From: Deltaproteobacteria bacterium
GTDB lineage: Bacteria > Myxococcota_A > UBA9160 > UBA6930
Direction of reading: 5' to 3'
NCBI GenBank assembly: GCA_016875395.1
Contig: VGRF01000017.1
Span: 1 to 64,000, forward strand
DNA: 64,000 bases
Position numbers and translations under genes: made by a program. Position 1 is the first letter of the stretch. Every line of letters starts with the position of its first letter. Positions 262-35,276 of the stretch are shown here, in pieces. The notes beneath the pieces were generated by a model. It was not told where the DNA came from, searched no databases, and was given only the letters and a program-made list of their open reading frames with translations.

Positions 262-1095
262 CTAGACCGGCGCCTTCTCCCCCTCGCCCAGCGTCAGGGG
301 CTCCACGCCGTCCGCGGTCACGAGCACGGTGTGCTCGAACTGCGCGGAGAGGGAGCCGTCGGCGGTGACCGCGGTCCAGCGGTCTTCGAGGATTTCCGTC
401 TTCCAGTGACCGAGGTTGATCATCGGCTCGATCGTGAAGGTCATGCCGGGCGCGAGGCGCTCGCCGCTGTTGGGCTTGCCGTAGTGAAAGATCGTCGGCG
501 CGGTGTGGAAGATCTTGCCGGTGCCGTGGCCGGTGAACTCGCGCACGACGCCGTAGCCCTGCGCTTCGGCGAACTGCTGGATCGCGAAGCCGATGTCGCC
601 CGTGGTGCCGCCTGGCCTAACAGCTCGGATGCCGAGCCACAGCGCGTGGTAGGTGTCGGCGACGAGGCGGCGCGCTTTCGGCGCGACGTCGCCGACGAGG
701 AACGTGCGCGAGCTGTCGCCGTGGTAGCCGTTCAGCTTCGGCGTCACGTCGACGTTCACGATGTCGCCATCTCGCAGGATCGTCTTGGCGTCCGGGATGC
801 CGTGGCAGACGACGTCATTGATCGAGATGCAGCTGCAGCGCGTGTAGGGCGGATGGCCGTAGCCGAGCGTGGCGGAGACGGCGCCGTGGTCGCGCGTGAA
901 CTCGTCGATGAAGTTGTCGATCGAGAGCGTGTCGAGGCCGGGGCGGATCCGCTTCGCCACTTCGTCGAGGAGCCGGCCCGCGAGCCGGCCTGCCGCGCGC
1001 ATCTGCTCGATCTCGTGCGGCGCGAGCAGCGGAATCACACCACTGCGACCGCGCGGCGCGGATTCTTGCTTCTGCTTGCCTCGACCCAAACGCAT
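262..1095 (-). CDS. map: Type I methionine aminopeptidase
   Basis: This cytoplasmic metalloenzyme removes the initiator methionine from new proteins. The 277-residue product has the pita-bread fold signature. The five metal ligands can be assigned to D116 and D127 (motifs NVDV and GDSS), H190 (FTGHGTG), E223 (TIEPM) and E254 (QFEHT), and the substrate-binding His to H98 in CHGIP. The length is slightly above the usual 250-265 because of a basic N-terminal extension of about 20 residues, so a start a little downstream is possible. It lies 109 bp downstream of the fatty-acid operon on the same strand and may be read through from it, but no coupling is visible. Confidence 0.96.
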   Translation of the reverse strand: MRLGRGKQKQESAPRGRSGVIPLLAPHEIEQMRAAGRLAGRLLDEVAKRIRPGLDTLSIDNFIDEFTRDHGAVSATLGYGHPPYTRCSCISINDVVCHGIPDAKTILRDGDIVNVDVTPKLNGYHGDSSRTFLVGDVAPKARRLVADTYHALWLGIRAVRPGGTTGDIGFAIQQFAEAQGYGVVREFTGHGTGKIFHTAPTIFHYGKPNSGERLAPGMTFTIEPMINLGHWKTEILEDRWTAVTADGSLSAQFEHTVLVTADGVEPLTLGEGEKAPV

Positions 1096-1204: not shown

Positions 1205-4200
1205 TCAACCGGGACGCCGCGCCTCTTCTCGCAGCTGCGCGATCAGGAACGCGCGCATCTCGCGCGCGGGCACGATGGATTCGAGCGAGCCCACATCTTT
1301 CGCGCGCTGAACGGAGTGGATGCGGTCGAACTCCTCGGCGAGCTCGGCCTGCTTCTCGAGGCGCACCTCTTCGAGCACTTTCTCGAAGCGCGCACGCGCC
1401 TCCTCGCTCGCGTTGCGGCCGGGCTGCGCGGCGCGCACGCGCGGGTCGGCGGCGGCACGGGCGCGCACGTCGCGCGCGAACACCACCGCGGCCGCGGGCC
1501 CGCCGCCGATCACGCTCGCGAACGAGCCTTCGAGCGCGGAGGCGCGCAGGCGCGAGTTCAGCGCACGCGAGAACACGACGTAGGCGCCGCCGTGGTAGCG
1601 AGACACGACCATGAAGGAGATCGGGCCGTCGAAGTTCACGACCGCGCGCGCGATCTCGGCGCCGTACTCGAGCTGCAGCTTGCGCATCGACTCGGGCGAG
1701 CCGTCGAAGCCTGACAAGTTCGCGAGGATCACGACGGGGCGGTTGCCGCTCGCCGCGTTGAGCGCGCGCGCGACTTTCTTCGAGGAGAGCGGGAAGAGCG
1801 TGCCGCCGGTCCAGGTCGACGGACCGTCGGGCGGCCGATAGCCCTCTCTCGTCAGGGACGTGCTCTCGATGCCGATCAGGCTCACTGCCTGCCCGCCGAG
1901 ATGCGCGTCCCACACGATCGCGGTCTCTGCGCCCACCCACGCGCGCCAGCGCTCGAGGTGCGGGCTGTCTTGGTCGATCAGCGCGGCCATCACCGGGCGC
2001 ATCGCGAAGGGGCGCTTGCGACCGGGGTTGGTGGCGTCGTCGAAGATCTCGCCCACGCGCGCGAAGTCGCCGCCCGGCGTCGCGGTGGCGCCGGCGTCGC
2101 GCGTGTCGGGGTCGCTCGTGCGCTGCGCGCGCGGCCCGCGCTCACCGGGCACGACGTACGTGAAGCGGTAGTGCTCGAACAGGATGCGATACGCGTCGCG
2201 GATGTCGGTGGCGTAGTACTGGCCCTCGCCGTTCGGGCCCATGATGCGCTCGAAGCCGCCGATCGCTTGCTCGTCCTCGGCGCTGACGGCGCCCGAGGCT
2301 TCGAGCGCCGCGCGGCCCGTCAGCACCATCGACGCGCCCGGCGTCATGATCAGCGCGCCGCGCGTGTGCATCAGCATCGTCGCGAGCGAGTCCCAATAAC
2401 TCTGCGCGCCGACGTTCACGCCCGTCACGATCACGTGGATGGCGCCGCCTTGCTGCGTGAACTCGATGATGCGGCGCACGACGCGCGCGGTGGCGTCGAG
2501 ATTATCCGTACCGCTGTCCATCGCGATGCGCGCGCCGCTCGACACCGGCACCCACTCCACGGGGATGCCGCGCTGCTCGGCGAGATCGATCGCCGCGACG
2601 ATGCGGCTGCACTCCTCGGGGCCGAGCGAGCCCATGCCGAGCGTCGGGTCCGAGAGCACGAGCACGCGCGACATGCCATCGGGCACCTTCTCGGTGGGCG
2701 TGCTGACGACGCCGAACACGATCGCGCAGTCGTTACGGCCGTAGGGGCGCGCGACGGGCGCGGCGGCACCGCTCGCGTCGAGATCCCATTCCTCGAAGGT
2801 GCCCACGGGCAGCTCGCCCTCGCCCGCGGCGTCGCCGTGCGAGCCCGTCAGCATCCGGACGATCTCGTACGGGTAGACGAGCCGGCGGCGGCGCGCGTCG
2901 ACGACTTTGCGCTCGTACGCCGAAGCGACGCGCAGGGCGCCGGTGCGCGGCTCGCGCATCTCGAGCGTGAGGTTCGAGCCGGTGAGATTCGCGATCACCA
3001 GCTCGCGCGGCGTCGCAGGCTCGTCCGGCTTCGCGCGGTCGAGCGTGCGCAAGCGCACGATCACCTTCTCGAGCCCGAGGTTGCGCGTCGCCGGCGCGAG
3101 CTTGCGCGAGAGGCGATCGGCGAGGCTCGCTTCGAGCACGATTTCGGGCGCGAGGTAGATCGCGATGCGGTTCCACTGCAGGCGCCGCTGCGGATCGCGC
3201 AGCGCGAGGTGGTTGCGCAGCGCGCGCGTCGCCTCGAAGAACATGTGCTCGAACGCGGGCACGTGCAGCGCCGCCTCGCGGCCCGGATCGGGCGAGCGCG
3301 AGCGCAGATCGCCGAGCACGAACATGCGCTCGTCGCTCGCGTCCTCGCGGCTCTTGCCCCAGAACGCGTAGAGGCCCTCGCTCGCGGGCAGGCGCTCGAG
3401 CGCGAAGTTCACGAGCCGCCCGAGGTCGACGCGCTTTGCCGCCTCGGGGTGGAGGCCGTGCAGGCTCGCGTCTTCGGCGAAGCCGTTCGGCGTGGGCACG
3501 AACGTGAAGTGGAGATCGGGGCCGCTGGGGCGGACGAGCGTGACCGTGACGCGCCCCGCGGCGAGCGAGCCCGCGAGCACGGGCGTAACGACTGCGGCGA
3601 CGTCCGGCGCTTCCTCGTCTTCACCGAGCGCGGCGAACAGCTCGAGCGCGAACACCGCGGGCCAGTCGTGACTCTCGCGCGACGACTCGGCGGCGCGCAC
3701 CACCACGCGCAGCGTGTCGGCGAGATCCGCAAGCGACGCGGTCGCCCCCAACACCACGCGACCCCCCGCGAAGTCCATGCGCTCTATCCAGCGCCCCGAC
3801 TCGCGGAACGAGACCTGCGCGATCGCCTCCTCGGGCGCGTAGGCGCGCTGCAGCTGCGCGGCGAGCGCGATCGCGCGGCGGCGCGGATCGGCGTCGGCGA
3901 TCCACGCGCCCACGCGGTCGAACGTCGCGCGCGGCACGCCGGCGAGATCGAGCAGCACTTCCGCCGGCGGCGCGGTCGGCTCCGCCTCCGCGGCGTCGAG
4001 GTAGGCGTTCACCTGCTTGCTCGTGCGCTCGGCGAGGCGCAGCGCTTCGGGCTGCTCGAAGATCACGTAGCGCGCTTCGATCGCGGCGTCGGCGACGGCG
4101 TTCGAAAGCAGGCCGCGCATGCCCGCGAGCAGATCGAGCGCCGCGGCGAGGCGCGCATCTTGCGCGAGCGGCACGCCGTGGCGCGCGAGCGAAGCCGCGC

Positions 4201-6781
4201 GGCGCAGCATCGCCAGCGCGAGGCGGTCGCGCAGCTCGGGCTGCTGCTGCGAAGCGAGCAGGCGCAGCACCGCGCGCTCGAGCGCGTCGCTGTGATCGAT
4301 GCTCTCGACGCCGTAATGAGCGAGCGCCGCTCGCACGAGATCGAGGAACTCCGCGGCGATGCCGGCGCCGCCGGCGCGCGTGCGCCGCGCGAACATGCGC
4401 ATGCGCGCGTCGTTCGAGGGCCCGAGCTCGCCGGAAACCGACGCAGCGGGCGAGCGAATGAAGAGCCGCGCGACATCGGCGGTGAGCGAGAGCTCGTGAC
4501 GAATCTCGGCGAGCTCGGCGTAGAACGGGTCGGGGAGGCCATCGGGCAGCGCCGCCTCGAGGAACTCGGCGAGCTTGTCGGCGCGCGCGGGGTTCACGTC
4601 GTAACCGAGCAGTGCACGGCGCGCCTCGTCGCGGATCGCGGCGATCGCGCTCCGGCGCTGCGGCGGCTGCGCGTTCGCCGCGGCCTCGAGGTCGGGCGCC
4701 CCGAGCGGGTCGCCGCCCTTCTCGCGGAAGAGCGGCGCGAGCGGATCCGCGATGTCGGGCAGCGCGAGCCGCGCGACGCTCGGCGCACTCGCCGCGCCCG
4801 CCTCGTCCTTCTTCGGCTCGATCACGAGCAGCACGTCGCCGGCCGCGACCTTCGCGCCCTTGCGCACGAGCACTTCCGTAACAACTCCGCTGACGGGCGC
4901 GTCGAACGCGACCTCCATCTTCATCGCTTCGAGCAGGCCGATCGTCTGGCCAGCGGTCACCGTGTCGCCCGGCTGCACGTGCACCGCGACGACCATCGCG
5001 GGCGCCGCGGCGCGCACTTGGCCCGCCGACTGCTCGTCGAAGCGGAACGCGCGCCCCTCGAGCTCGACGCGCAGGTTCGCCCCGCCCACGTCGTAGAGCA
5101 CGCGGAACACGCGCTCGCCGAGCTGCAAGCGCGCGGTGTGCTCGCCCTCTTCGCGCAGGCCCGCTGCGAGCGCGTGGCCATCGAGATGCACGCGGTATCG
5201 CCAGCCGCCGATCGCGTAGATGTCGAGGCGGTACTGCTCGCCGCCGAAGCCGAGGTCGATCTGCTGCCCGCTCGAGACGGGCACGCGATCCGCGGCGAAC
5301 GCGGCCTCGGCGTAGAAGTTGAGCCGCGCCTGCGCGCGCGCGGCCTGATAAGCGAGGATGCCCGCGGCGACCAGCGCCGGCGCGGCGAGCTCGTCGTTGC
5401 GCTCGCGCGCGAGTCCGAAGCGATCGAGCCAAGTCGTGTCGACCGCGCCCTTGCGGTAGTCGGCGTGGTCGAGGATCTCGGCGAGCCAGCCCTTGTTGGT
5501 CGCGCCGCCCTCGACGACGAGGTCGAAGTCGTCGAGCGCGGACGCGAGCCGCGCGCGCGCTTCTTCGCGATCGGCGCCGGTCGCGATCACCTTCGCGATC
5601 AGCGAGTCGAACGCGGCGGGCACCGTGCTGCCCTGCACGTAGCCCGTGTCGACGCGAATGCGCGGACCGAGCGCGGGATCGAAGCGCGCGATGCGGCCGG
5701 GCGCGGGCAGGAAGCCCTGATCGGGGTCTTCGGCGCACACGCGCGCCTCGATCGCCCAGCCGTGCTCGCGCAGCTTCACGCCCGCGAGCGACTCGCCGCG
5801 CGCGATGCGGATCTGGATCTGCACCAGATCGAGGCCGGTCAGCTCCTCGGTGATGCCGTGCTCCACCTGGAGCCGCGGATTCATCTCGAGGAAGTAATAA
5901 CTCTCGCCCTCGACGAGGAACTCGACGGTGCCGACGCCTACGTAGCCGACGTGCTTCGCGACTTTCGCGGCGCACGCTTCGAGCGCGCTGCGCACTGCGG
6001 GCGAGAGCCCCGGCGGCGGCGCTTCCTCGAGCACCTTCTGGTGGCGCCGCTGGACCGAGCAGTCGCGGCAGCCGACCGCGAGCACGTTGCCGTGCGCATC
6101 GCCCGCGATCTGCACCTCGATGTGCCGCCCGCCCGTGACCTTCGCCTCGATGAAGAGGCGCCCGTCGCCGAAGGCGTTCTTCGCCTCGGAGCTCGCGGAA
6201 CGAAACGCGGGCGCGACCTGATCGAGCGAGTCGACGACGCGTATGCCGCGCCCGCCGCCGCCCGCGGAGGCCTTGATCACGACCGGCAGGCCGATCTCGG
6301 TCGCCCAGCGCTCGGCGTCCGCTTCGTTCTCGACGACGCCCTTGCTCCAAGGTGTCACGGGCACGCTCACGCTCTCGGCGAGGTGCTTCGAGCCGATCTT
6401 GTCGCCGAGGGCGCGCATCGCGTCGGGCGAGGGGCCGAGGAAGCGAATGCCCTCGCGGTTCAGGCGCTCTACGAACGCGGGGTGCTCGGAGACGAATCCC
6501 CAGCCTGGCCACACCGCGTCGGCCTCGGCCTTGCGCAGCGCCGTGATCAGTCCGTCGTGATCGAGATACGCCGCGACTTCGCCGCGCGGCGCCGGCATCG
6601 CGATCGCGAGGTCGGCGTGGCGCACGAACGGCGCGTCGCGATCGATCTCGGTGTAGAGCGCGACGGCGAGAATCTCCGCGCCTTCCTGTGCGCGCAGCGC
6701 CTTCACCGCGCGAATGCAGCGCATCGCGGCTTCGCCGCGATTCACGATCGCGAGGCGGCGGATCGGCTGGATGCGCGTCAC
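1205..6781 (-). CDS. Single-chain (eukaryote-style) acetyl-CoA carboxylase
   Basis: This protein is predicted to make malonyl-CoA from acetyl-CoA, bicarbonate and ATP. The 1,858-residue chain carries, in order, a biotin carboxylase (about 10-455; glycine-rich ATP-grasp loop KASAGGGGRGIRVV and MNPRLQVEH), a biotinyl domain (EAMKM, Lys 621), a roughly 600-residue central region, and both halves of a carboxyltransferase (about 1,250-1,858; GMSRVLVLSDPTLGMGS and ANLSGFDGSPESM). This is the order of eukaryotic ACC. It differs from the separate AccABCD subunits of most bacteria. The start is a GTG overlapping the stop of the phosphopantetheinyl transferase gene (GTGA). It is the last gene of the fatty-acid operon, so acetyl-CoA is the likely substrate, but propionyl- or longer acyl-CoA cannot be excluded. 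Confidence 0.9.
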   Translation of the reverse strand: MTRIQPIRRLAIVNRGEAAMRCIRAVKALRAQEGAEILAVALYTEIDRDAPFVRHADLAIAMPAPRGEVAAYLDHDGLITALRKAEADAVWPGWGFVSEHPAFVERLNREGIRFLGPSPDAMRALGDKIGSKHLAESVSVPVTPWSKGVVENEADAERWATEIGLPVVIKASAGGGGRGIRVVDSLDQVAPAFRSASSEAKNAFGDGRLFIEAKVTGGRHIEVQIAGDAHGNVLAVGCRDCSVQRRHQKVLEEAPPPGLSPAVRSALEACAAKVAKHVGYVGVGTVEFLVEGESYYFLEMNPRLQVEHGITEELTGLDLVQIQIRIARGESLAGVKLREHGWAIEARVCAEDPDQGFLPAPGRIARFDPALGPRIRVDTGYVQGSTVPAAFDSLIAKVIATGADREEARARLASALDDFDLVVEGGATNKGWLAEILDHADYRKGAVDTTWLDRFGLARERNDELAAPALVAAGILAYQAARAQARLNFYAEAAFAADRVPVSSGQQIDLGFGGEQYRLDIYAIGGWRYRVHLDGHALAAGLREEGEHTARLQLGERVFRVLYDVGGANLRVELEGRAFRFDEQSAGQVRAAAPAMVVAVHVQPGDTVTAGQTIGLLEAMKMEVAFDAPVSGVVTEVLVRKGAKVAAGDVLLVIEPKKDEAGAASAPSVARLALPDIADPLAPLFREKGGDPLGAPDLEAAANAQPPQRRSAIAAIRDEARRALLGYDVNPARADKLAEFLEAALPDGLPDPFYAELAEIRHELSLTADVARLFIRSPAASVSGELGPSNDARMRMFARRTRAGGAGIAAEFLDLVRAALAHYGVESIDHSDALERAVLRLLASQQQPELRDRLALAMLRRAASLARHGVPLAQDARLAAALDLLAGMRGLLSNAVADAAIEARYVIFEQPEALRLAERTSKQVNAYLDAAEAEPTAPPAEVLLDLAGVPRATFDRVGAWIADADPRRRAIALAAQLQRAYAPEEAIAQVSFRESGRWIERMDFAGGRVVLGATASLADLADTLRVVVRAAESSRESHDWPAVFALELFAALGEDEEAPDVAAVVTPVLAGSLAAGRVTVTLVRPSGPDLHFTFVPTPNGFAEDASLHGLHPEAAKRVDLGRLVNFALERLPASEGLYAFWGKSREDASDERMFVLGDLRSRSPDPGREAALHVPAFEHMFFEATRALRNHLALRDPQRRLQWNRIAIYLAPEIVLEASLADRLSRKLAPATRNLGLEKVIVRLRTLDRAKPDEPATPRELVIANLTGSNLTLEMREPRTGALRVASAYERKVVDARRRRLVYPYEIVRMLTGSHGDAAGEGELPVGTFEEWDLDASGAAAPVARPYGRNDCAIVFGVVSTPTEKVPDGMSRVLVLSDPTLGMGSLGPEECSRIVAAIDLAEQRGIPVEWVPVSSGARIAMDSGTDNLDATARVVRRIIEFTQQGGAIHVIVTGVNVGAQSYWDSLATMLMHTRGALIMTPGASMVLTGRAALEASGAVSAEDEQAIGGFERIMGPNGEGQYYATDIRDAYRILFEHYRFTYVVPGERGPRAQRTSDPDTRDAGATATPGGDFARVGEIFDDATNPGRKRPFAMRPVMAALIDQDSPHLERWRAWVGAETAIVWDAHLGGQAVSLIGIESTSLTREGYRPPDGPSTWTGGTLFPLSSKKVARALNAASGNRPVVILANLSGFDGSPESMRKLQLEYGAEIARAVVNFDGPISFMVVSRYHGGAYVVFSRALNSRLRASALEGSFASVIGGGPAAAVVFARDVRARAAADPRVRAAQPGRNASEEARARFEKVLEEVRLEKQAELAEEFDRIHSVQRAKDVGSLESIVPAREMRAFLIAQLREEARRPG

Positions 6782-7371
6782 GATGCGAGCCTCACGCTCT
6801 CGGCGCCGAGCGCGCACGCGAACGCGACGAAGCGCCCGTGATGGGAGAGCGAGAGATCGGCGCGCGCGGGCTCACCGCGCACGCACAGCACGGGGATGCG
6901 CCCGCGCTTCGCGACCGAGAGCTCGCCCGCGTCGGCGCCGAGCTGCGCGGCGAGCGCGCCGCACGCGAACGCGCGCGCTTCCGCGGAGGCGTCGTCGCTC
7001 GCGAGCTCCCTGACGCCGCGCGCGGCGGACTCCGCGCTCGCATCGTCGCTCGCGAGCGCGTGCACCCACTCCGCGCGCTCCTCGACGAACAACGCGAAGC
7101 GACGCTCGCCGTGCGCCACGCTGCCGCGCTCGCGCGACAGCAGCGTCACCTCGAAGCGCGAGGGCGCCCACACCGTGGCGCGGTCGAGCTTCTTCGCGGC
7201 CTTGTAGGCCGCCTCCTTCGCGGCCCACAGCACCCAGCGCACGCGCTGCGTCGCATCGCCTGCGATCAGCGCGCGCTCGCGCTCGCAGAACACGCGCGCG
7301 TCGAAACGCGGATTCTGCGCGCCCGGCTGCGTGCCGCGGTGCGCGAAGTCCACCACGTCATTGCCGAGCAT
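6778..7371 (-). CDS. 4'-phosphopantetheinyl transferase family protein
   Basis: This enzyme should transfer the phosphopantetheine arm of CoA to the serine of an acyl carrier protein. The 197-residue product has the early acidic motif (GNDVVDF) and the family hallmark WAAKEAAYK at residues 49-57. The gene overlaps its upstream neighbour by 14 bp and the carboxylase gene downstream by 4 bp, so the three are probably translated together. The evident substrate is the ACP encoded two genes upstream. The middle (about 95-150) is alanine-rich and variable. Whether it also serves other carrier proteins cannot be told. Confidence 0.85.
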   Translation of the reverse strand: MLGNDVVDFAHRGTQPGAQNPRFDARVFCERERALIAGDATQRVRWVLWAAKEAAYKAAKKLDRATVWAPSRFEVTLLSRERGSVAHGERRFALFVEERAEWVHALASDDASAESAARGVRELASDDASAEARAFACGALAAQLGADAGELSVAKRGRIPVLCVRGEPARADLSLSHHGRFVAFACALGAESVRLAS

Positions 7372-8110
7372 CGAAGTGTTCCTTCTCGAGCTCGGCGAGC
7401 TTCGCCGTGACTTGGCGCGCGATGTCGAGCGAGCCGCGCAGGCCGCTCTGATCGCTCTTCGGCTCGAGCACGGCCATGCGCCCGCGGAAGACTTCGCCGC
7501 GCGCCGGCGCGTCCGTCATGCCGTGCTGGCCGTCGCCGCGCAGGTAGAGGCACAACACGCGGCAGCCCGGCACCGACGAAACGATGCGGCCGATGCCGTA
7601 CGCCGCGTTCTCCACCTCGACACGCCCGCTGCGCGAGCGCGCGCCTTCGGGGAACACCATCACCGCTTCACCGCTCTTCAGCAGGTACTCCACCTTGTCG
7701 AGCACGAGCGCGACTTCCTTGCGGTCGGAGCCGCGCCTGATCGGAACGCACTTGAGCACGTACGTGAGCAGCTGCTTCCACCACGTCGACGCGAAGTGCA
7801 CGCGCTCGGGCGTGTTCCACGGAATCGACGAGAAGTGACGCAAGTAGAAGAGCGAGTCGCCGAGCGCCCAGCCGATCACGAACGAATCCAGCATCGTCAG
7901 GTGATTCGCGCAGATCAGCAGCGGCGCGTGCGACTGGGTGCGCAGCTCGCGGTACTGACGGCGCAGCTCGGCGGCGTTCGCGACGCGCCAGCGGAACGCG
8001 AACGCCATCAGGCTGACGAAGATCGGGATCCACAGCGGCGAGAGGGCGCGCGACACCGCCCGCTGCACACGCAGCGCACGCACGTCGCTCGCAGCCAGGC
8101 CTTCCGCCAA
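7358..8110 (-). CDS. Lysophospholipid acyltransferase (PlsC-like)
   Basis: This is a membrane-associated acyltransferase of the PlsC/LPLAT family that moves an acyl chain to a glycerol-type or other acceptor. The 250-residue product has the catalytic NHLTMLD (HX4D) block near residue 69 and the acceptor-binding FPEGARS block near residue 153, with one hydrophobic segment near residues 25-40. The open frame starts at a TTG 12 bp downstream of the acp stop; a GTG nine codons further in is an alternative start. Its place between acp and the phosphopantetheinyl transferase suggests that it off-loads the product of this synthase straight into a lipid. The acceptor is unknown. Confidence 0.85.
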   Translation of the reverse strand: MAEGLAASDVRALRVQRAVSRALSPLWIPIFVSLMAFAFRWRVANAAELRRQYRELRTQSHAPLLICANHLTMLDSFVIGWALGDSLFYLRHFSSIPWNTPERVHFASTWWKQLLTYVLKCVPIRRGSDRKEVALVLDKVEYLLKSGEAVMVFPEGARSRSGRVEVENAAYGIGRIVSSVPGCRVLCLYLRGDGQHGMTDAPARGEVFRGRMAVLEPKSDQSGLRGSLDIARQVTAKLAELEKEHFDARQ

Positions 8111-8122
8111 CGCGAATGCCGG

Positions 8123-8368
8123 CTAGAGCTTCTGCGAGATCAAGCCGACGCAGTCGCCGATCGTGTTGACGGTGTCGACGTCTTCGTCGGCGATCTCGAT
8201 GTCGAACTCGTCCTCGAAGGCGAGCACGACGTCGACGAGACGCGCCGAGTTCACCTTCAGGTCCTCGAGGATGTTCGTCGCCGCGCTCGCGCTCGAGAGC
8301 GCGGCCGCGTCCTTCACGTACGGCGTCAGGATCTTGATCACGCGCGACTGAATCTCACTGGCCTGCAT
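8123..8368 (-). CDS. Acyl carrier protein
   Basis: This 81-residue acidic helical protein carries growing acyl chains on phosphopantetheine. The attachment site is Ser41 in VNSARLVD; the usual DSL triplet is NSA here, so this is a diverged ACP and not the standard AcpP. The helix after it (VVLAFEDEFDIEI) is typical. An AGGGGAG ribosome-binding site sits just upstream of the ATG. The gene lies 29 bp after the ketosynthase stop and 12 bp before the acyltransferase, so it is the dedicated carrier of this operon. Confidence 0.92.
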   Translation of the reverse strand: MQASEIQSRVIKILTPYVKDAAALSSASAATNILEDLKVNSARLVDVVLAFEDEFDIEIADEDVDTVNTIGDCVGLISQKL

Positions 8369-8397: not shown

Positions 8398-9675
8398 CTA
8401 GTCATTCCACTTGCGCAGCACGAGGGCGGCGTTCACGTCGCCGAAGCCGAAGCCCGCCTTCATGATCGTGCGCAAGCCGGGAAGCGTTCTCGTTTCGTGC
8501 GGAATCGACGCCGCGAAGGGCGCGATCTCGGGGTGCACGTCCTCGCAGTTGATCGAGCCGTGCACGTAGCCGCCGCGCAGCATCAACACGGCGGCGATCG
8601 ACTCCAGCGCGCCCGCGGCGCCGAGCGTGTGGCCGATCAGCGACTTGGTCGACGTGATCCACGGGAAGCTCTCGGGGCCGCGGCCGAGCGCCGCGGACCA
8701 CGACGCCACCTCGCGCGGATCGGCCCCGGTCGCGGTGAGGTGGCCGCTGATCGCGTCGACCTCGCTCGTCGCGATGCCGGCGTCGGCGATCGCGGCGCTG
8801 ATGCAGCGCCTCACACCTTCGGGGTTCGGCGCGGTCATCGAGCCGCCGCCGCGGTGCCCGCCGCAGTTCGTCGCGGCCCCTAACACCTCGGCGTGAATGC
8901 GCGCCCCTCGTGCGCGAGCCGCGTCGAGACTCTCCACGATCACGACGCCGGCGCCCGCGCCCGGGATGAAGCCGCCCGCGCTCGCGGAGAGCGGCCGGGA
9001 CGCCGCCTCGGGCGCGTCGTTGTGCTTGCGGTTCAGTACGCGCATCGCATCGAAGCCGGCCCAGTTGTACGGCGTCGGCACTTCGGCGCCGCCGCACAGC
9101 ATGCGCTCCGCGAGGCCCGCGCGGATGCGCTCCACGCCCATCGCGATCGCCTCGGCGCCGGTCGCGCACGCGCTCGAGTTCGTCGTCACCTGGTTGCCGA
9201 GCGCGAGGATCCCGGACACGCGCGCCGAGAGGCCGCTCGCCATCACCTGCTCGACCGAGGTCGAACCGAGGCGCTTCACCTTGTTGTCGTTCACGAGCGG
9301 CACCACGCGGTCGCCCACCGTGTCCATGCCGCCGATGCCGGTCCCGAGCACCGCGCCGGTGTCCCAGTTCACGTGCTCGTCGCCGAACTTCGGGCGAGGC
9401 AGCCCCGCGTCGGCCCACGCTTCCACGCTCGCGATCGCCGCGTAGCGATGGATCGCGTTCATCGCGAGCAGCTCTTCCTCGGTGAAGAGCGACTTCGCGA
9501 GCTCTTCGACGCCCTCGGGCACGCCGCCCACCGTGCAGGCAAAGCCGTGCTTCACCATGAAGTCGACGGTGCGCAGGCCGCTCTTGGTCGAGCGGAGGGC
9601 GGCGTCGAACGCGCCGAGGCCGTTCGCGTTGGGCGCGATCACGCCCATGCCCGTGACCACGACGCGCCGCTTCAT
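8398..9675 (-). CDS. Beta-ketoacyl-ACP synthase (FabF/FabB-like)
   Basis: This condensing enzyme is predicted to extend acyl-ACP by two carbons with malonyl-ACP. The 425-residue thiolase-fold protein has the nucleophile Cys170 (SSACATG), His312 (SGHLTATG) and His349 (IGHTLGAAGA). The His312 block reads GHLTATGADP where most FabF proteins have HGTST, which marks a subfamily. It overlaps the dehydratase stop by 4 bp (ATGA) and precedes acp. With the KAS III, ketoreductase, dehydratase and enoyl reductase genes upstream it completes a full elongation cycle. Confidence 0.93.
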   Translation of the reverse strand: MKRRVVVTGMGVIAPNANGLGAFDAALRSTKSGLRTVDFMVKHGFACTVGGVPEGVEELAKSLFTEEELLAMNAIHRYAAIASVEAWADAGLPRPKFGDEHVNWDTGAVLGTGIGGMDTVGDRVVPLVNDNKVKRLGSTSVEQVMASGLSARVSGILALGNQVTTNSSACATGAEAIAMGVERIRAGLAERMLCGGAEVPTPYNWAGFDAMRVLNRKHNDAPEAASRPLSASAGGFIPGAGAGVVIVESLDAARARGARIHAEVLGAATNCGGHRGGGSMTAPNPEGVRRCISAAIADAGIATSEVDAISGHLTATGADPREVASWSAALGRGPESFPWITSTKSLIGHTLGAAGALESIAAVLMLRGGYVHGSINCEDVHPEIAPFAASIPHETRTLPGLRTIMKAGFGFGDVNAALVLRKWND

Positions 9676-10130
9676 CGCGCGACTCCCATGCCCGACAGCT
9701 GCCCCGAGCACACGATGCGCCCATCCGCGCCGCTCATCGTGGCCTCGACCTTGATCTTGCGGCGGCGATAGAAGAGCACGCGCGACTCGGTGGTGACGAC
9801 GTCGCCAGGGCGCACGACGCCTGAGAAGTCCACTTGCGCGTCGGTAAAGAACGTCTGGTACGTCGCGGCCTCCGCGTCGTCGAACTCGGCATAGAGGCGT
9901 TGAAGCGCGATCGGCACGACGCCGCACTGCGCCATCGACTCGATCAAGAGCACGCCAGGCGTGACTGGGTTGCCAGGGAAGTGCCCGCGATAGAAATCCG
10001 CCTCGGGTCGCCAGCGATAGCGGCCGACCGCGCGCTCCTCGCTCAGCTCCAACAATTCGTCGACGAAGCGGAACGGCTCCTGCTGCGGCACGCGCGCGAG
10101 CGCTTCGGCGGTCGTGAGCTTCCTACCCAC
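9672..10130 (-). CDS. 3-hydroxyacyl-ACP dehydratase (FabZ-like)
   Basis: This hotdog-fold dehydratase removes water from 3-hydroxyacyl-ACP. The 152-residue product shows the active-site helix HFPGNPVTPGVLLIESMAQ with catalytic His50 and Glu64. The size fits FabZ better than FabA, and no isomerase-specific feature is evident. The start is a GTG that overlaps the ketoreductase stop by 8 bp, and its own stop overlaps the ketosynthase start by 4 bp. Both overlaps indicate translational coupling inside the fatty-acid operon. Confidence 0.92.
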   Translation of the reverse strand: MGRKLTTAEALARVPQQEPFRFVDELLELSEERAVGRYRWRPEADFYRGHFPGNPVTPGVLLIESMAQCGVVPIALQRLYAEFDDAEAATYQTFFTDAQVDFSGVVRPGDVVTTESRVLFYRRRKIKVEATMSGADGRIVCSGQLSGMGVAR

Positions 10131-10854
10131 CGTACATCCCTCCGTTCACGTGGATGACGGTGCCGTGCACGTAGCTCGCCTTGGTCGCGAGCCACGTAAC
10201 AACTTCCGCGACTTCCTCCGCAGTCCCCATGCGCGCCATCGGGATGCGCCCGAGGATGTGCTGCTTCACTTCCGCGGGCAGCTCGTGCGTCATCTCGGTG
10301 TCGATGAAGCCGGGCGCGACGGAGTTCACGCGGATGTTCCGGCCCGCGACTTCCTGCGCGAGCGACTTGGTCAGCGCGTCGAGCCCGGCCTTCGCCATGG
10401 TGTACGGCGCTTGCCCCGGGTTGCCCGTGTGCCCGACCACGCTCGAGATGTTGATGATGCGCGCGTCGTCGCTGCGTATCAGGAAGCGGCGCAGCGCGAC
10501 CTTCGTGAGATACCAGGTGCCCCGTTCGATCGCGGCGACGGCGTCGTAGTCCTCGAGCTTCATCGTGACCATCGGCGCGTTCACGTTGAAGCCGGCGTTG
10601 TTCACGAGCACGTCGAGGCGGCCGGCCTTGTCCTTGAGCTCGGCGATCAGCGCGTCGATCTGCGCGGAGTCCGCGAGGTCCGCCTTCAGTAGGAACGCCT
10701 CGCTCCCGCACTTGTCCGCGATCGCGCGCGCCTTCTCCTCGCTGGAGCGGTAGTGCACTGCGACGCGAAAGCCGGCGCCCGCGAGCGCGAGCGCGCAGGC
10801 GGCGCCGATGCCGGTGCCGGCGCCCGTCACGAGTGCGACGCGCGCGTCGCTCAC
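10123..10854 (-). CDS. 3-oxoacyl-ACP reductase (FabG-like SDR)
   Basis: This NAD(P)H-dependent short-chain dehydrogenase is predicted to reduce 3-oxoacyl-ACP. The 243-residue product has the cofactor loop TGAGTGIG (10-17), NNAG at 85-88 and the catalytic Ser138, Tyr151 and Lys155 (YTMAK). The conserved Asn of the usual N-S-Y-K tetrad falls in the segment AAIERGTW and appears replaced by Ile or Glu. The start is a GTG overlapping the KAS III stop (GTGA). Position between KAS III and the dehydratase supports the fatty-acid role over general SDR activity. Confidence 0.9.
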   Translation of the reverse strand: MSDARVALVTGAGTGIGAACALALAGAGFRVAVHYRSSEEKARAIADKCGSEAFLLKADLADSAQIDALIAELKDKAGRLDVLVNNAGFNVNAPMVTMKLEDYDAVAAIERGTWYLTKVALRRFLIRSDDARIINISSVVGHTGNPGQAPYTMAKAGLDALTKSLAQEVAGRNIRVNSVAPGFIDTEMTHELPAEVKQHILGRIPMARMGTAEEVAEVVTWLATKASYVHGTVIHVNGGMYGG

Positions 10855-11852
10855 GCCGCGGCTCCGAACCGAAGCAGCGCCCGCGCCCAGGTGAGACCGC
10901 CGCCGACCACGACCGCCGCGAGATCCGCGCCCGCCGGCACCTTGTCCCAGTGCTGCGAGATCACGGTGGGACAGCTCGCGCCGCCGGTGTTGCCGAACCA
11001 CTCGACGTTCGAGAAGTGCCGCTCGGGCTGAACGCCGCAGCGCTGCGCCACTTGCTCGAGCACCCGCAGATTGGCCTGATGACCGACGAAGTAGAGCGGC
11101 CGATCGCCGCCTTCTTCCGCGAGCTGCTCCTTCAGCTTCTCGTAGCCCTCGCGCGTGCGCTTGATCGCGAACATCTGCACTGCGCGGCCGTCCTGTGAGA
11201 ACACGCTCGTGCGCCGGATCAGCACCTTGTCCGCGCCGCTCGGATCCGACGCCACTGCCGGCCACAACGCCTCGACGCGCGCGGGCACCTTGGTCGAGAT
11301 CACCGCCGCGGCGGCGCCGTCGCCGAAGAGCACCGCGGAAGAGCGGTCCGAGTAGTCCATCGCCGACGTGAGCTGCTCGGTCTGCGTGATCAGGATGAAC
11401 TCCGGCAGTTTCGCCGGATCCATCAGCGACAAGTTGTAGAGGTGCATCAGGAACGTGGAGCACGCGCTGTTCACGTCCCAGCACGGCGCCTCGATGCCGA
11501 GTTGCTTCGCGACGAAGCTCGCTTCGGCGGGGCACAAGATGCGCGGCGCCGAGCTGCCCGAGATGACGAGACCGATCTGCTCGCGCGTCACGCCTGCGCG
11601 CTGCATCGCCATCTCGGCGGCGCGCTGCGCGAGGTCCGCGTTCGTGTAGAGCAGCGCGCTCTCGGCCTCGCGCACGTCGCGATTCTTCGTCGCCGCGAGG
11701 TACTCGAGCGGCAGCGCGCTGCGCCGCTCGCGGATGCCCACGCGCTCGACGATCCAGTCGTCGTTCGTCCCGATGTCGAGCGACTCGAGGAACTTGTTCG
11801 TGATCACCACCTCCGGGTGGAAGTGGCCCATGGCGTGGATGTAGAGGCTCAC
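10851..11852 (-). CDS. Beta-ketoacyl-ACP synthase III (FabH-like)
   Basis: This enzyme starts fatty-acid synthesis by condensing an acyl-CoA primer with malonyl-ACP. The 333-residue product has Cys131 (NSACSTF), His258 (GHQANLRVL) and Asn288 (FGNTGGASCP), the KAS III catalytic triad. The GTG start overlaps the enoyl reductase stop by 4 bp. The N-terminus (YIHAMGHFHPE) and several loops differ from textbook FabH, so the primer may not be acetyl-CoA. The sequence alone does not show the primer. Confidence 0.9.
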   Translation of the reverse strand: MSLYIHAMGHFHPEVVITNKFLESLDIGTNDDWIVERVGIRERRSALPLEYLAATKNRDVREAESALLYTNADLAQRAAEMAMQRAGVTREQIGLVISGSSAPRILCPAEASFVAKQLGIEAPCWDVNSACSTFLMHLYNLSLMDPAKLPEFILITQTEQLTSAMDYSDRSSAVLFGDGAAAAVISTKVPARVEALWPAVASDPSGADKVLIRRTSVFSQDGRAVQMFAIKRTREGYEKLKEQLAEEGGDRPLYFVGHQANLRVLEQVAQRCGVQPERHFSNVEWFGNTGGASCPTVISQHWDKVPAGADLAAVVVGGGLTWARALLRFGAAA

Positions 11853-12802
11853 GTGGTGCTCCCCGCGATGCGCTCGCCGCCGTCGATGCGGATCACCGTG
11901 CCGTTGATCCACGCCGCTTCGGGCAGGCATAACAAGTAGAGGACGTTCGCGACGTCGGGCGGCGTGGTGATGCGGCGCAGCGGATTGCGCAGCCGCGAGT
12001 GCGCCTTCAGCCGGTCGCTGCCGGGAATCGCTTGCAGCGCGGGCGTGTCGGTGACGCCGGGCTGCAGCACGTTGCAGCGAACCCCGTGCGGGCCGAACTC
12101 GGTCGCGATCGAGCGCGCGGTCGCCTCGAGCGCGACTTTCGCCGCCGACACCGCGGCGTAGCCTTTCCACGCGACTTCGTTGCCCTCGCTCGTCAGGCCG
12201 AACACGCGCGCATCGGCGGCGAACTGCCCGCGCTGGAAGATGTCCTGCACCCAGTCGAGCAGGCTCGTGCCCATGCAGTGAATCGTGCGCGCGAAGTCTT
12301 CGGCATCGAGCAGCGAGTGCGTCGGATACGCGGGCGCGGTCGAGAGCTCGGCGAGCTCGTCGAAGCCTTCGCTCGCGAGCTTGTCGACGGCGCCCGCGAG
12401 CGCCTCCTTCGCGACGCCGAGCGACTCCGCAAGCTTCGCCACCGCGAGCCCGGCCCCGGGCTTCGCCACCTCCGGCACGATCAGCTTCAGGTTCCCGAAC
12501 GCGATCGAGTGGAGGAGCATCTTCACGCGCCCGCTCGCGCCGAGCTGCTCGCCGAGCTGGCCGAGAATTCGGCCGCGCACTTCGGCGTCGAGTGCGTCGT
12601 CGTTCTCGATGATCAGCTTCACGCCCGTCGCACGCAGCTTCTCGAACTCGGGCTCGATGCGTTTCATCGCGCCGCGGCGGTCGCGGTGGACGATGCAGAG
12701 GTTCATGCCGTGCGCCGCGAGCTTCTGCGCGGTCGCGAGGCCGAAGCCGCTCGATCCGCCGAGGATCACGCCCCAGTCATCGCCGGAGAAACGTCCGGAC
12801 AT
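11849..12802 (-). CDS. Enoyl-ACP reductase (FabI-like SDR), extended
   Basis: This protein is predicted to do the last reduction of each elongation cycle. The 317-residue Rossmann protein starts with GGSSGFGLA and has the FabI-type spacing Tyr215-x6-Lys222 (YAAVSAAK), unlike the YxxxK of ordinary SDRs. It is about 55 residues longer than E. coli FabI; the extra length is an alanine-rich insert around residues 110-165. It is the first gene of the operon and is followed by KAS III with a 4-bp overlap. It could instead act on enoyl-CoA, but the context argues for ACP. Confidence 0.82.
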   Translation of the reverse strand: MSGRFSGDDWGVILGGSSGFGLATAQKLAAHGMNLCIVHRDRRGAMKRIEPEFEKLRATGVKLIIENDDALDAEVRGRILGQLGEQLGASGRVKMLLHSIAFGNLKLIVPEVAKPGAGLAVAKLAESLGVAKEALAGAVDKLASEGFDELAELSTAPAYPTHSLLDAEDFARTIHCMGTSLLDWVQDIFQRGQFAADARVFGLTSEGNEVAWKGYAAVSAAKVALEATARSIATEFGPHGVRCNVLQPGVTDTPALQAIPGSDRLKAHSRLRNPLRRITTPPDVANVLYLLCLPEAAWINGTVIRIDGGERIAGSTT

Positions 12803-13146: not shown

Positions 13147-13914
13147 TCAGCCCATCCACGCGCCGTTGTTCGGGTCGAAGGCCTGCCCGGTGAACGAGAC
13201 GCCGCCGGGGCCGCACAGGAACTCGACGAGCGCGGCGACTTCTTCGGGCTCGCTGATGCGCTGCAGCGGGACGCCGGCGAGCAGCTCGGCCTTGGTGGCG
13301 CGGTAGTCCTTGCCCATGCCCTCGCCGATTTCGGTCATGCGGTCGACGGCCATCTGCGTCTCGACCCAGCCGGGGCAGATCGCGTTCACGAGCACCTTCT
13401 TGGGCGCGAGCTCCGCCGCGAGCGAGCGCACGAGCCCGAGCTGCCCGGCCTTCGCCGCGCTGTAGGCCGAGATGCCCGCGACGCCGAAGCGCGCGACGCA
13501 CGAGCTGATCACGATCGCGTGCGTGTAGCCGGCGCTCGCCGCGAGCTGCGCCTCGAACGCGCGCAGCGTGAAGTACGCGCCGTCGAGGTTCGTGCGCACG
13601 ATTGCGTCCCAGCGGTCGCCGCCGCCGAGATCGTTCGGGCCGCCGATGCCCGCGTTCGCGACCACGACGTGCGGGCGACCGAGCGTACGCGCGACTTCGG
13701 CGAAAGCGCCGTCGACCGAGGCGCGCTCCTGCACGTCGCACGGAATCACGCGCGTTTTGCCCTTCGCCTCGCCCGCGACCGCCTCGAGCGTCCCACGCGT
13801 GCGCCCGAGCAGCGCGACCGACGCGCCGCACGCAGAGAGGCGCAGCGCGATCGCGCGCCCGATGCCGGTGCCGGCGCCCGTCACCACTGCGACTCGGCGG
13901 GAGAGATCGGTCAT
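13147..13914 (-). CDS. SDR family oxidoreductase
   Basis: This is a classical NAD(P)-dependent short-chain dehydrogenase of 255 residues with TGAGTGIG near the N-terminus, NAGIGG, the catalytic YSAAK and the usual PGWVET loop. The ATG at 13914 was chosen because the 17 residues before it in the open frame have no SDR character. It could be a FabG paralogue or a 3-hydroxyacyl-CoA or alcohol dehydrogenase; the substrate cannot be told. It lies 344 bp upstream of the fatty-acid operon on the same strand and is probably a separate unit. Confidence 0.85.
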   Translation of the reverse strand: MTDLSRRVAVVTGAGTGIGRAIALRLSACGASVALLGRTRGTLEAVAGEAKGKTRVIPCDVQERASVDGAFAEVARTLGRPHVVVANAGIGGPNDLGGGDRWDAIVRTNLDGAYFTLRAFEAQLAASAGYTHAIVISSCVARFGVAGISAYSAAKAGQLGLVRSLAAELAPKKVLVNAICPGWVETQMAVDRMTEIGEGMGKDYRATKAELLAGVPLQRISEPEEVAALVEFLCGPGGVSFTGQAFDPNNGAWMG

Positions 13915-14008
13915 GAGCGCCTCCGGATTGCGACGATATCCCTGAACGCGAACGGTCGGCTGCACTCAGGCCGGGCCTAGACGCAGCTCTGCGCCGCGCC
14001 GCGCCTCG

Positions 14009-32050: not shown

Positions 32051-32740
32051 CTATCCGCTGCGCCGAAGCAGCCACCGGCGCGTCTCGTGAACGAGAGTCA
32101 GGGACGCCTCTGGCCCGGACCACCAGCGCACGAAGGCGAGCTCGTCGGGCTCGGCAGGGCTCTCCGCCCGCTCGGTCACCGAGTCGAGAGCGAGAACGAG
32201 GGGCGCGCCATCGCCACTCTCCCCGAGCAGCAGCGCGACTGCGTGCGTCGGGGCGAGCACGTCCGCGTGCGGCGTGAGCGGTGCGAGCGGGAATTCGTCG
32301 CCACACACGAGCAACACGTCGCGTTCGGGCTCGCGCGCCAGCAGGCCGAGCGCCTCGACGAGCCCGCACACGAAGCTCTCGCGCCCGGCGGAGATCGAGC
32401 TGCACGCGCTTCGGTTCTTCGCCCACACCGAGAAGACGCCCGCGGGCGCGTTGTGCACGGAGTGGCTGAAGGTGTTGGGCGAGAGCGCCCTTCCGGTTGT
32501 TATGGAATCGAGCAGCTCGACCAGCGCCGTGAGCGATGCGTGGCGGCTCGCGAACACGCACGCGCATGCCTCGATCTGCGCCGCGCTCGCGCACTCGTGC
32601 GCGACGTGCAGCATCGCGCGCGTCACGTCGTCGCAGCGGCGGCGCACGAGCGGCGGCAGAAAGCGCGCATCCGGCGCTCCGGCCTGCGCGCCAGCGTCCG
32701 GCTTCCACGCGACGACCTGGCGCACGAGCGCGCGTTTCAT
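32051..32740 (-). CDS. Beta-ketoacyl-synthase-like chain-length factor (aryl polyene type)
   Basis: This 229-residue protein matches the short ketosynthase N-terminal-like proteins (Ketoacyl-synt_2) of aryl polyene clusters. Blocks seen are SPNTFSHSVHNAPAGVFSVW and LLVCGDEF. The active-site Cys of true ketosynthases is absent, so it should act as a non-catalytic partner that sets chain length. Its start overlaps the stop of the ketosynthase gene upstream by 4 bp (ATGA), as for a heterodimer pair. Confidence 0.8.
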   Translation of the reverse strand: MKRALVRQVVAWKPDAGAQAGAPDARFLPPLVRRRCDDVTRAMLHVAHECASAAQIEACACVFASRHASLTALVELLDSITTGRALSPNTFSHSVHNAPAGVFSVWAKNRSACSSISAGRESFVCGLVEALGLLAREPERDVLLVCGDEFPLAPLTPHADVLAPTHAVALLLGESGDGAPLVLALDSVTERAESPAEPDELAFVRWWSGPEASLTLVHETRRWLLRRSG

Positions 32741-33930
32741 CGCGCGTGACCGAGCACGAGTGCGCAGTTGCTGCCGCCGAAGCCGAATGAGGTGGACATC
32801 AGTGCGGCGGGCCACGACGCCGCAACCCCTTCGCCGCGCTGCGCGAGCGGCAGCGCAGGCAGCGCCGGATCGCGCGCGCCCGCGGCGACATGCGGCGGCA
32901 GCGCGATGCGCTCGCCTTCGCGCCGCGCGAGCGCGAGCCAGCAGAACGCGGCTTCGAGCGCGCCCGCCGCCGCCAGCGTGTGCCCCGTGAGCGGCTTGGT
33001 GGAGCTGCACGGCGGCGGCGCGGCGAACACGCGCGCCACGGCGAGGCTCTCCATCGCGTCGTTGTGCGGCGTGCCCGTGCCGTGCAGGTTCAGGTACGCG
33101 ATGTCGCCCGGTGCGAGCCGCGCGTCCGCGAGCGCCGCGCGCATCGCGGCCTCGGCGCCTGCGCCTTCGGGATGCGGCGCCGAGATGTGATGCGCGTCCA
33201 TCGCCTCGCCCGCACCCAACAACGCGAGCGGCGCCGCCTCGCGAGTCACGAGGAAGAGCGCCGCGCCTTCGCCGAGCACGAGGCCGTCGCGCCCCGCGGT
33301 CATCGGGTTCGTGCGGTCGGCGGCGAGCGCTTGCAGTGCGCGGAACCCGTTCGCGGTCGTGCCGCAGAGCGCATCGCTGCCGCCCGCGATCACGGCGTCG
33401 CACCAGTCGTTCGCAATGAGTGCGCGCGCGCTCGCGAGCGCCTTCGCGCCGGAAGAGCACGCGGTCGACATCGCGAAGCGAGGCCCCGCGGCGCCGGCCG
33501 CGTGTGCGATCACTTTGGCGACGCCGCCGAACTCGATGCGCTCAAGGTGCGAGCCTGGCGGCAGCGCGCCGTCTGCGGCGCGCGCGCGAAACGCGGCCTC
33601 GGTCTCGCCGATGCCCCCCGTGCTCGTTCCCACCACGACACCGACGCGGAGCGCGCCGAAGCGCAGCACCGCGGCGCGCGCCTCGCGCTCGATCTGCGCG
33701 AGCGCGGCGAGCGCGAGCTGCGCGGCGCGCGTGTCGTGCTGCACGACCGCGCGCGGAACCTCGGGCAGCGCGCTCGTCACGCTGCCGAATCGAAAGCGCG
33801 CGCCGGGCGTGAGGTCCTCGCGCCACGCGAGCGCGCTCGAGTCGCCCGCGACGAGGCCGCGCCACACCGCATCCGCGGAGTCGCCGAGCGCGCACACGAG
33901 ACCGAGCGCGGGCACGCCGACAGCGCTCAT
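32737..33930 (-). CDS. Beta-ketoacyl synthase (aryl polyene type)
   Basis: This 397-residue condensing enzyme has Cys158 (STACSSG), His283 (NLHGTGTPHND) and His317 (TGHTLAAAGA). The neighbours (chain-length-factor-like protein, acyl ligase, dehydratase, second KS) place it in polyene and not primary fatty-acid synthesis. It appears intact. Both ends overlap neighbouring genes by 4 bp, so ligase, KS and chain-length factor form one minus-strand operon. Confidence 0.88.
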   Translation of the reverse strand: MSAVGVPALGLVCALGDSADAVWRGLVAGDSSALAWREDLTPGARFRFGSVTSALPEVPRAVVQHDTRAAQLALAALAQIEREARAAVLRFGALRVGVVVGTSTGGIGETEAAFRARAADGALPPGSHLERIEFGGVAKVIAHAAGAAGPRFAMSTACSSGAKALASARALIANDWCDAVIAGGSDALCGTTANGFRALQALAADRTNPMTAGRDGLVLGEGAALFLVTREAAPLALLGAGEAMDAHHISAPHPEGAGAEAAMRAALADARLAPGDIAYLNLHGTGTPHNDAMESLAVARVFAAPPPCSSTKPLTGHTLAAAGALEAAFCWLALARREGERIALPPHVAAGARDPALPALPLAQRGEGVAASWPAALMSTSFGFGGSNCALVLGHAR

Positions 33931-35276
33931 CGAGGCTCCCGCAACAGCTCGCCGCGCAGGATCTTCCCGGTCGGCGAGCGCGGCACGTCCTCCCGAATCT
34001 CGAACACGCGCGGCACCTTGTAGTCGATCAGCCGCTCGCGCGCGTAGCGACGCAGCGCATCGCGCGTGGGCGTGCGTCCCGGCTCGGGCACGACGACGGC
34101 GCGCAGCCGCGCTCCCGTATCCGAGAACGGCAGCGGCAGCACGACCACGTCGCGCACGTCGGGATGCCCTAACAACAACGCCTCGACTTCGAGCGAGTTC
34201 ACCTTCACCGCGCCGACGTCGATGAGCAGGCTCGCGCGCCCGTTCAGCCAGAGCCGCCCCGCGTCGTCGAGTCGGCCGAGATCGCCCGTGTTCACGAGCT
34301 CGGCCGGCGCATCCGCGCTTCCGACGTAGCCGTCGAAGCGGGACGGCGCGGCCACCGCCACGATGCCCTCCTCGCCGATCGCGACCGGCTTCTCTGGATT
34401 CGGCGCGGCGCGATCGAGCACTCGAAGCGTCACCCCCGGGAGCGCGCGGCCGACGCAGCCGAGCGGATCGCCCGCGCGCGTCGCGGTGACTGTGCCGAGC
34501 TCACTCGATCCGTACACCTGCCCCACCGCGACACCGAGCTTCTCCTCGAACGCTCGGGCGACTCGCTCCGACAGCGCGCTGCCGGCGGAGACGACGCAGC
34601 GCAGCACTGCGCTGGCTGCTTGGTCGCCAGCGAGGCGAGCGAGCGCGTCGACCATCGTCGGCACGGCGGGCAGGTGCGTGATGCCGCCTTCTGCGAGCTC
34701 GCGGCGCACGAGCGCGGGATTGAAGCCCGCGTGAAGTACGGCGCGCGCGCCCGCAAGCAGCGCTGCCGTCAGCTGATCGAGCCCGTACGAGTGGAACAGC
34801 GGAATCGCGAGCAGCGAGCGGTCGCCCGGACCGAGCGCGAGCGCCTCCGCCGAGGTGCGTGCGATGAAGTCGACCGCGCGCACGCTGCGGCGCACGATGC
34901 GCGGGAAGCCCGTGGTGCCCGAGGTGGTGAGCAGCACCGCACCGGAGAAGTCGCGCGGGCCGTCGATCGTTCGTGGCGCGCGCAGCAGTGCGTCGAACGC
35001 GAGCGACTCCCCGCCGCCGAGCCTCGGCTCCGCGAGCACGAGCTTCGCGCCAAGCTGGTGCGCGAGATCGGCGAGGGCGGCCGGCGGGGTGCGCGGCGGG
35101 ACCCCTAACACCTCGGCGCCCGAGCGCAGCGCGGCGAGTAGCGCACACGCGAGCGCCGGCCCGTTGTGCGCGACGACGATCACGCGCGCGCGCGGCCCGA
35201 GTGCCGCGAAGCGCACGGCGAGCGCGCAGGTCGCGATCTCGAGCTCCGGGCTCGCTCGCGCACGTAATCGCAGCAC
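33927..35276 (-). pseudogene. AMP-binding acyl ligase, 5' truncated
   Basis: This ANL-superfamily acyl- or aryl-acid ligase of about 449 residues has the P-loop TTSGTTGFPR, NTGDLGRLDD, the hinge region NGRASLLIDVGAVKVNS and the catalytic Lys in SPTGKILRG. It would load the starter acid for polyene synthesis. The core is complete, but homology begins abruptly at about 35255 (SPELEIATCALAVRF). The usual first 25-40 residues are missing, and the upstream part of the frame is antisense to the acyltransferase fragment on the other strand. A GTG at 35276 could still start a shortened protein. Confidence 0.7.

Follow-up and report, generated by a model that had tools for sequence, protein, structure and literature searches.

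Does a bacterium make its malonyl-CoA with a single-chain acetyl-CoA carboxylase (ACC) built like that of eukaryotes? The question is raised by an 1,858-residue reading frame in the window, that is, the whole 64,000-nucleotide stretch of DNA analyzed here. From the sequence comparisons below, we put at roughly 0.8 the probability that its product is a bacterial homologue of the eukaryotic multidomain ACC, a cousin of the SACE_4237 type and a maker of malonyl-CoA. That the protein belongs to the ACC family appears nearly certain, and malonyl-CoA would very probably be its main product; that it mainly supplies its own operon is an even bet.

Reading frame and domain order

The ACC gene reads from position 6781 down to 1205, from a GTG start and without an internal stop. 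The preliminary description had placed biotin carboxylase (BC), biotinyl, central and carboxyltransferase (CT) parts in this one frame in the order of eukaryotic ACC, an arrangement borne out by the frame itself, Pfam, the family profile and the fold; the frame is a real ACC-type gene (Table 1). Within the BC part, Pfam placed Biotin_carb_N at residues 7–122, ATP-grasp at 127–333 and Biotin_carb_C at 345–453, and the E-values of the BC, biotinyl and CT domains (5e-16 to 3e-65) were far beyond chance. The position of the EAMKM motif puts the biotin on Lys621 (codon 4919–4921), as had been proposed. An antisense frame on the plus strand (1901–6841, 1,646 aa) was rejected as a gene, because every domain match lies on the minus strand; it is explained as a chance product of the window's 70.6% G+C.

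Table 1. The ACC gene, its domains and the neighboring genes, in positions of the window
Feature	Position	Strand	Basis and remarks
Single-chain acetyl-CoA carboxylase (ACC)	1205..6781	-	1,858 aa, whole gene; frame, Pfam and family profile
Biotin carboxylase (BC) domain	5423..6763	-	Residues 7-453; Pfam, BC tree
Biotinyl (BCCP) domain	4820..5011	-	Biotin_lipoyl, residues 591-654; Pfam
Central region as folded	2657..4816	-	Residues 656-1375, end part reaching into CT; fold and profile
Carboxyltransferase (CT) domain	1223..2680	-	Carboxyl_trans, residues 1368-1853; Pfam, PDB search with CT alone
Type I methionine aminopeptidase	262..1095	-	Downstream neighbor, outside the function; TIGR00500 290.8 bits, over cut-off
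4'-Phosphopantetheinyl transferase (PPTase) superfamily gene	6778..7371	-	PF01648 40.8 bits
Lysophospholipid-type acyltransferase	7358..8110	-	PF01553
Acyl carrier protein (ACP)	8123..8368	-	81 aa; NCBIfam ACP models 39-50 bits, under their cut-offs
Beta-ketoacyl-ACP synthase II-like (KASII)	8398..9675	-	fabF model 270 bits, cut-off 493.75; start chosen
FabZ-like dehydratase	9672..10130	-	PF07977, NCBIfam
FabG-like ketoreductase	10123..10854	-	3-oxoacyl-ACP reductase model 251 bits, cut-off 297.75; start chosen
Beta-ketoacyl-ACP synthase III-like (KASIII)	10851..11852	-	NCBIfam 198 bits, cut-off 249; Pfam; start chosen
SDR, probable enoyl-ACP reductase	11849..12802	-	PF13561; role inferred
Second SDR	13147..13965	-	Beyond a 344-base gap upstream; may or may not belong to the operon

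Central region and carboxyltransferase

Pfam by itself left the central region undecided, since ACC_central (PF08326) scored 23.8 bits against a cut-off of 23.2, barely above it, over residues 1076–1155; its identity is settled by the family profile and the fold. The profile, built from 25 full-length bacterial members, found yeast ACC first in the PDB (E 5.6e-176), and one stretch of it (328–1393) aligned with yeast residues 424–1611, through the biotinyl and central parts and into the CT. When the BC domain was left out of the profile, eukaryotic ACC chains made up the first 23 of 28 PDB matches.

The central region was folded alone with AlphaFold from an alignment of residues 656–1375 with 91 relatives, hand-picked from 104 references, giving a pLDDT of 91.5 and a pTM of 0.89. 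In a Foldseek search of the PDB, all 31 matches of the model at E ≤ 0.001 were yeast, Chaetomium or human ACC; the best was 5csl_B (4.6e-24), and the first non-ACC chain had an E of 0.026. VIA-align superposed model residues 51–720 on residues 795–1585 of yeast ACC (5csk_A) with a Z of 29.1 and an rmsd of 5.5 over 570 residues, and gave a Z of 25.6 and an rmsd of 5.1 over 340 for the AC3–AC5 fragment 5cs4_B, whereas the first non-ACC chain reached a Z of 7.2. The region thus has a structural match in the eukaryotic ACC central domains, the point on which the preliminary description had staked its reading. The match carries the caveat that query-normalized whole-region TM-scores were at most 0.54 and the Foldseek rmsd was large; both would be expected if the subdomains sit at differing angles. 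Identity to eukaryotic ACC was about 17% in the fold-based alignment. Judged by the predicted fold together with the profile, the region is a true ACC central domain, present as claimed but nearer to about 690 residues than to the 600 or so first given. Helical-repeat chains (CNOT9, importins; Z 5–7) lay below the ACC rows in the VIA-align list and were taken to reflect a common arrangement.

The CT domain, searched alone, retrieved eukaryotic ACC chains first (E 2e-17), followed further down by an acetyl-CoA carboxylase beta chain (6.9e-10) and AccD6 (7.3e-8). With these matches of the central region and the CT, the combined result that would have spoken against a eukaryote-style enzyme did not appear. 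The eukaryotic CT motif ANWRGF, whose arginine we take to be catalytic in yeast ACC, was replaced by ANLSGF in 79 and ANISGF in one of the 80 loci among the matches listed. Propionyl-specific beta subunits carry Asp after GGAY; this position was Val in all 48 loci, of the 80 listed, where the pattern was found.

Known relatives, distribution and phylogeny

The preliminary description had further held that the single-chain bacterial acyl-CoA carboxylases known to it are much shorter and lack such a central region. As a rule for bacteria this is not supported, as Livieri et al. (2019; PMC6491548) describe one in SACE_4237 of Saccharopolyspora erythraea, a purified ACC/PCC with a chain of ~200 kDa and a homodimer of about 400 kDa. 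SACE_4237 has a eukaryotic-type central region and is essential for fatty-acid synthesis; its kcat/Km (per second per mM) is 0.85 with acetyl-CoA and 0.52 with propionyl-CoA, and none was detected with palmitoyl-CoA (PMC6491548). It has also been put to a complementation test in an accB temperature-sensitive strain. The window protein resembles it in its ~200 kDa chain and its BC–biotinyl–central–CT order, and the actinobacterial kin of SACE_4237 align with the window protein end to end. These kin place SACE_4237 in clade II of the BC tree described below, its own sequence being represented only by the N-terminus MFSRVAIV coded in a published primer; VFSRVAIV occurs in L133, L134, L135 and L138. 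Identity between the window protein and the clade II loci was 41–46% from the BCCP domain to the end. Actinobacteria were already known to have the type, and the window protein belongs to a separate-clade, Myxococcota-centered and widespread branch of it.

With yeast ACC1 and human ACC1 the window protein shares domain order, central fold and CT kinship, but it is shorter (1,858 versus about 2,200–2,400 residues), has ANLSGF in place of ANWRGF and does not group among the eukaryotic rows of the BC tree. Such a protein is predicted to work like eukaryotic ACC, yet it is not a member of the eukaryotic branch. PMC6491548 gives long-chain acyl-CoA carboxylase (LCC) as about 1,000–1,150 aa without a central domain; LCC likewise joins BC, BCCP and CT in one chain but is much shorter and has no ACC central domain. 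The heteromeric AccA–D enzyme has separate AccA and AccD subunits where the window enzyme is one chain, and the Shewanella AccS, as described in PMC11602165, is a single-chain bacterial ACCase of about 170 kDa whose domain order is unlike that of eukaryotic ACC. Searches of the open-licence literature listed no report of a single-chain eukaryote-type ACC from Myxococcota.

Among 60 relatives, 54 matched the window protein at E ≤ 0.001; G020 and G051 proved to be weak CT cross-matches, leaving 52, and 48 same-order relatives were 55–67% identical to the window protein. In a phylum sample, the central-plus-CT sequence matched 106 of 282 genomes at E ≤ 1e-30; the ACC_central Pfam model was too weak for such a survey (41/282 at E ≤ 0.001). 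A scan of GTDB genomes yielded at least 574 loci, of which 80 were kept (L059–L138) with titles from Myxococcota, Acidobacteriota, Actinomycetota and Pseudomonadota. At least three other phyla, including Actinomycetota, have relatives of equal length. Of the 80 listed loci, 71 matched the window protein from one of its first 9 residues onward, and nine only from a later point (L074, L084, L098, L099, L107, L112, L114, L118 and L121). A contig of the same-order assembly G269 (C182; L143:1-9938) carries an intron-split, algal-looking eukaryotic ACC and a RING-finger protein, and is eukaryotic contamination of that assembly.

The BC tree comprised 55 rows, with the window and 48 loci chosen by hand, yeast and one alga as the only eukaryotes, and two LCC-like and two MCC-alpha-like rows as the root. 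The window protein fell into clade I (18 rows, 100/100); one of these rows is titled Proteobacteria, and all others have Myxococcota titles or come from genomes of the window's order. In clade II (31 rows, 92/78), Actinomycetota, Acidobacteriota and Pseudomonadota stood together with more Myxococcota, among them L054–L058, which are second copies in genomes of the window's order. All bacterial ACC rows stood apart from the LCC-like and MCC-alpha-like rows, so the BC phylogeny that had been suggested as a check places the window protein in a bacterial ACC clade, away from the MCC and LCC rows. The eukaryotic ACCs lay outside both bacterial clades (97/83), and their branch was long, at 2.5 changes per column. 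By its end-to-end alignment, and by a common branch apart from MCC/LCC and eukaryotes (97/83), the window protein shares descent with the actinobacterial members. A quick CT tree again recovered clade II as one group (31 rows, 100), with the window's type apart from it; for placing eukaryotes this tree was set aside, with outgroup end branches of 5–7 changes per column and two of three eukaryotic rows covering less than half the columns. The record titled Spirochaeta sp. MED672 (L070) has a clade I ACC and a Myxococcota fatty-acid operon, and its title is probably a misassignment.

In 2019 an actinobacterial source of eukaryotic ACC was proposed, with only actinobacteria named as carriers in the part of the paper available (PMC6491548). 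AU tests on the BC tree did not reject the union of eukaryotes with clade I (p 0.333) or with clade II (p 0.086), but rejected their union with seven core actinobacterial rows at p 0.0167, a value that is optimistic, since the groups were named after the tree had been seen; the core group left out four actinobacterial rows (L106, L109, L117 and L127). Taken together, the BC tree and the AU tests weaken the proposal without overturning it. With two clades and Myxococcota in both, the wider set makes it testable with better sampling. A bolder scenario, which we offer tentatively, is that the enzyme is of old bacterial origin, with two main lineages: a Myxococcota-centered one tied to a type II operon, and another that reaches four phyla and often goes with a PfaA-like synthase. 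In each it would be a dedicated supplier of malonyl-CoA to the synthase next to it, and eukaryotic ACC would come from the stem of the family, not from within actinobacteria.

Operon, neighborhoods and probable role

The genes upstream of ACC form a packed type II set. From the SDR gene starting at 12802 to ACC, the eight junctions comprise overlaps of 4, 4, 8, 4, 14 and 4 bases and gaps of 29 and 12 bases, lengths that rest partly on three hand-chosen start codons (KASII, FabG and KASIII); at the last junction, the PPTase stop and the ACC start share 4 bases (GTGA). The claim that the gene ends a fatty-acid operon therefore stands as to the overlapping set, but less so as to the end, because a methionine aminopeptidase gene of the same orientation follows after another 109 bases. 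The operon genes scored under the curated cut-offs of primary fatty-acid genes, and fabD is absent from the operon in the window. The likely attachment serine of the operon ACP lies in LKVNSARL, not in the usual DSL. Elsewhere in the genome (4.5 Mb, 96 contigs, 96% complete), canonical fabD (352 bits), acpP and fabF (550 bits) lie together on contig C15, over or near curated cut-offs, which makes the window operon a second fatty-acid set. No accA or accD scored over cut-off in this genome (TIGR00513, TIGR00515). Other acyl-CoA carboxylases are encoded on C3, C4, C26 and C27 and could make malonyl-CoA too; those on C3 and C27 include two shorter LCC-like single-chain proteins, in frames of 1,150 and 1,352 aa.

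Neighborhoods differed between the clades. Among the listed clade I loci (L059–L083), at least four of eight operon genes were present in 19 of 25, fewer than four in two (L064, L081) and none in four (L073, L074, L075, L079), L074 being without upstream DNA. None of the 55 listed clade II loci (L084–L138) had four operon genes; a type II fatty-acid operon is the setting of the window's clade I. A PfaA-like synthase ended at most 230 bases from the ACC start in 25 of 48 clade II loci, these 48 being the listed loci, counted from L085, whose upstream DNA reaches 300 bases or more; the weakest such matches were L086 (77 bits) and L115 (97 bits). The second copies L054–L058 had a PfaA-like synthase directly before ACC in all five cases. 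Two synthase frames that look complete gave domain detail: that of L117 (176–7966, plus strand) carries KS, AT, ACP, KR and DH domains and scored 870 bits to PfaA (cut-off 1010); that of L097 (1–7869, plus strand) is alike at 868 bits, with a PPTase gene after ACC. Such pairs span Acidobacteriota, Actinomycetota (e.g. Mycobacterium), Pseudomonadota and Myxococcota (also L088, L100, L105, L111 and L056). Neighborhoods that recur in this way suggest that the enzyme supplies malonyl-CoA to particular lipid synthases.

Malonyl-CoA supply, as first suggested, is supported as a likely role by the operon, the ACC-type CT and the profile. The BC domain would carboxylate the biotin on Lys621, using ATP and bicarbonate; the central domain would be a scaffold placing BC, biotinyl domain and CT in the dimer, as in yeast; and the CT would pass the carboxyl group to acetyl-CoA, perhaps to propionyl-CoA too. 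The co-encoded KASIII, KASII, FabG, FabZ, reductase and ACP would consume the malonyl-CoA, and their product may be put into a lipid by the acyltransferase of the operon. Moving the malonyl group to ACP would depend on the FabD of C15, since none is encoded in the operon. Given the lack of accA and accD over cut-off, the second operon and the other carboxylases, we commit to malonyl-CoA, most likely for the operon and possibly for the whole cell. What weighs against this reading is the replaced ANWRGF motif, the low scores of the operon genes, the canonical set on C15, the other carboxylases, and three clade I loci (L073, L075 and L079) that have upstream DNA but no operon.

The closest competitor, to which we give somewhat less than an even chance, is that the enzyme is the cell's general ACC, serving the C15 set as well, its place in the operon being historical. 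Such a role would fit the lack of accA and accD hits in the window's genome, the presence of the gene in 52 of 60 relatives and its occurrence without the operon in L073, L075 and L079, all of which have upstream DNA; SACE_4237, moreover, is essential and general in its host, according to PMC6491548. It is countered by the other carboxylases of the genome, by the operon linkage in 19 of 25 listed clade I loci, which suggests a special partner, and by the relatives that do without the enzyme: in seven of these eight, accA and accD likewise stayed under cut-off, which means that the task can fall to another enzyme. Mutual exclusion with AccA/AccD was considered and is not claimed, as there is a single clear case, G051 (L139), with a true accA (480 bits) and no single-chain ACC, and G057 (L140, L141) has both, its accA- and accD-like matches falling in one 466-aa frame.

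We think it unlikely that the enzyme is mainly a carboxylase of propionyl-CoA, or of longer acyl-CoA, providing branched extender units for the operon product: the nearest CT relatives in the PDB are acetyl-CoA carboxylases, and Val, not the propionyl-type Asp, follows GGAY wherever the pattern was found (48/48). The reading draws on SACE_4237, which uses propionyl-CoA nearly as well as acetyl-CoA (PMC6491548). LCC-type enzymes also fuse BC, BCCP and CT, and the same genome has two; that the window protein is one of them is nonetheless highly improbable, given the ACC central domain seen by profile and fold, the separation of bacterial ACC rows from LCC-like and MCC-alpha-like rows in the BC tree, and the absence of mmdA from the best 25 of 48 families for the window protein. 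Least probable of all, at the edge of what we would entertain, is an origin by eukaryotic contamination or by a recent transfer from a eukaryote. Assemblies of this kind do contain eukaryotic contigs, as L143 in G269 shows, but the window gene has no introns, lies in a bacterial operon, is 55–67% identical to 48 same-order relatives and belongs to a bacterial clade of its own. This compact bacterial form of the enzyme would also lend itself as a model of eukaryotic ACC in structural and engineering work.

Two further beta-ketoacyl synthase genes lie elsewhere in the window. The one at 36231–38045 (plus strand) matches NCBIfam PRK09116 at 494.6 bits and is interrupted by a TAG in frame (37878–37880), beyond which the synthase continues; it is a pseudogene, an assembly error or a case of readthrough. 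The other, at 32740–34500 (minus strand), matched PRK09185 over cut-off and has UbiA, O-methyltransferase and signal-peptide-peptidase-like genes near it (about 27–46 kb), a region that by its look is presumably another lipid or aryl-polyene-type cluster.
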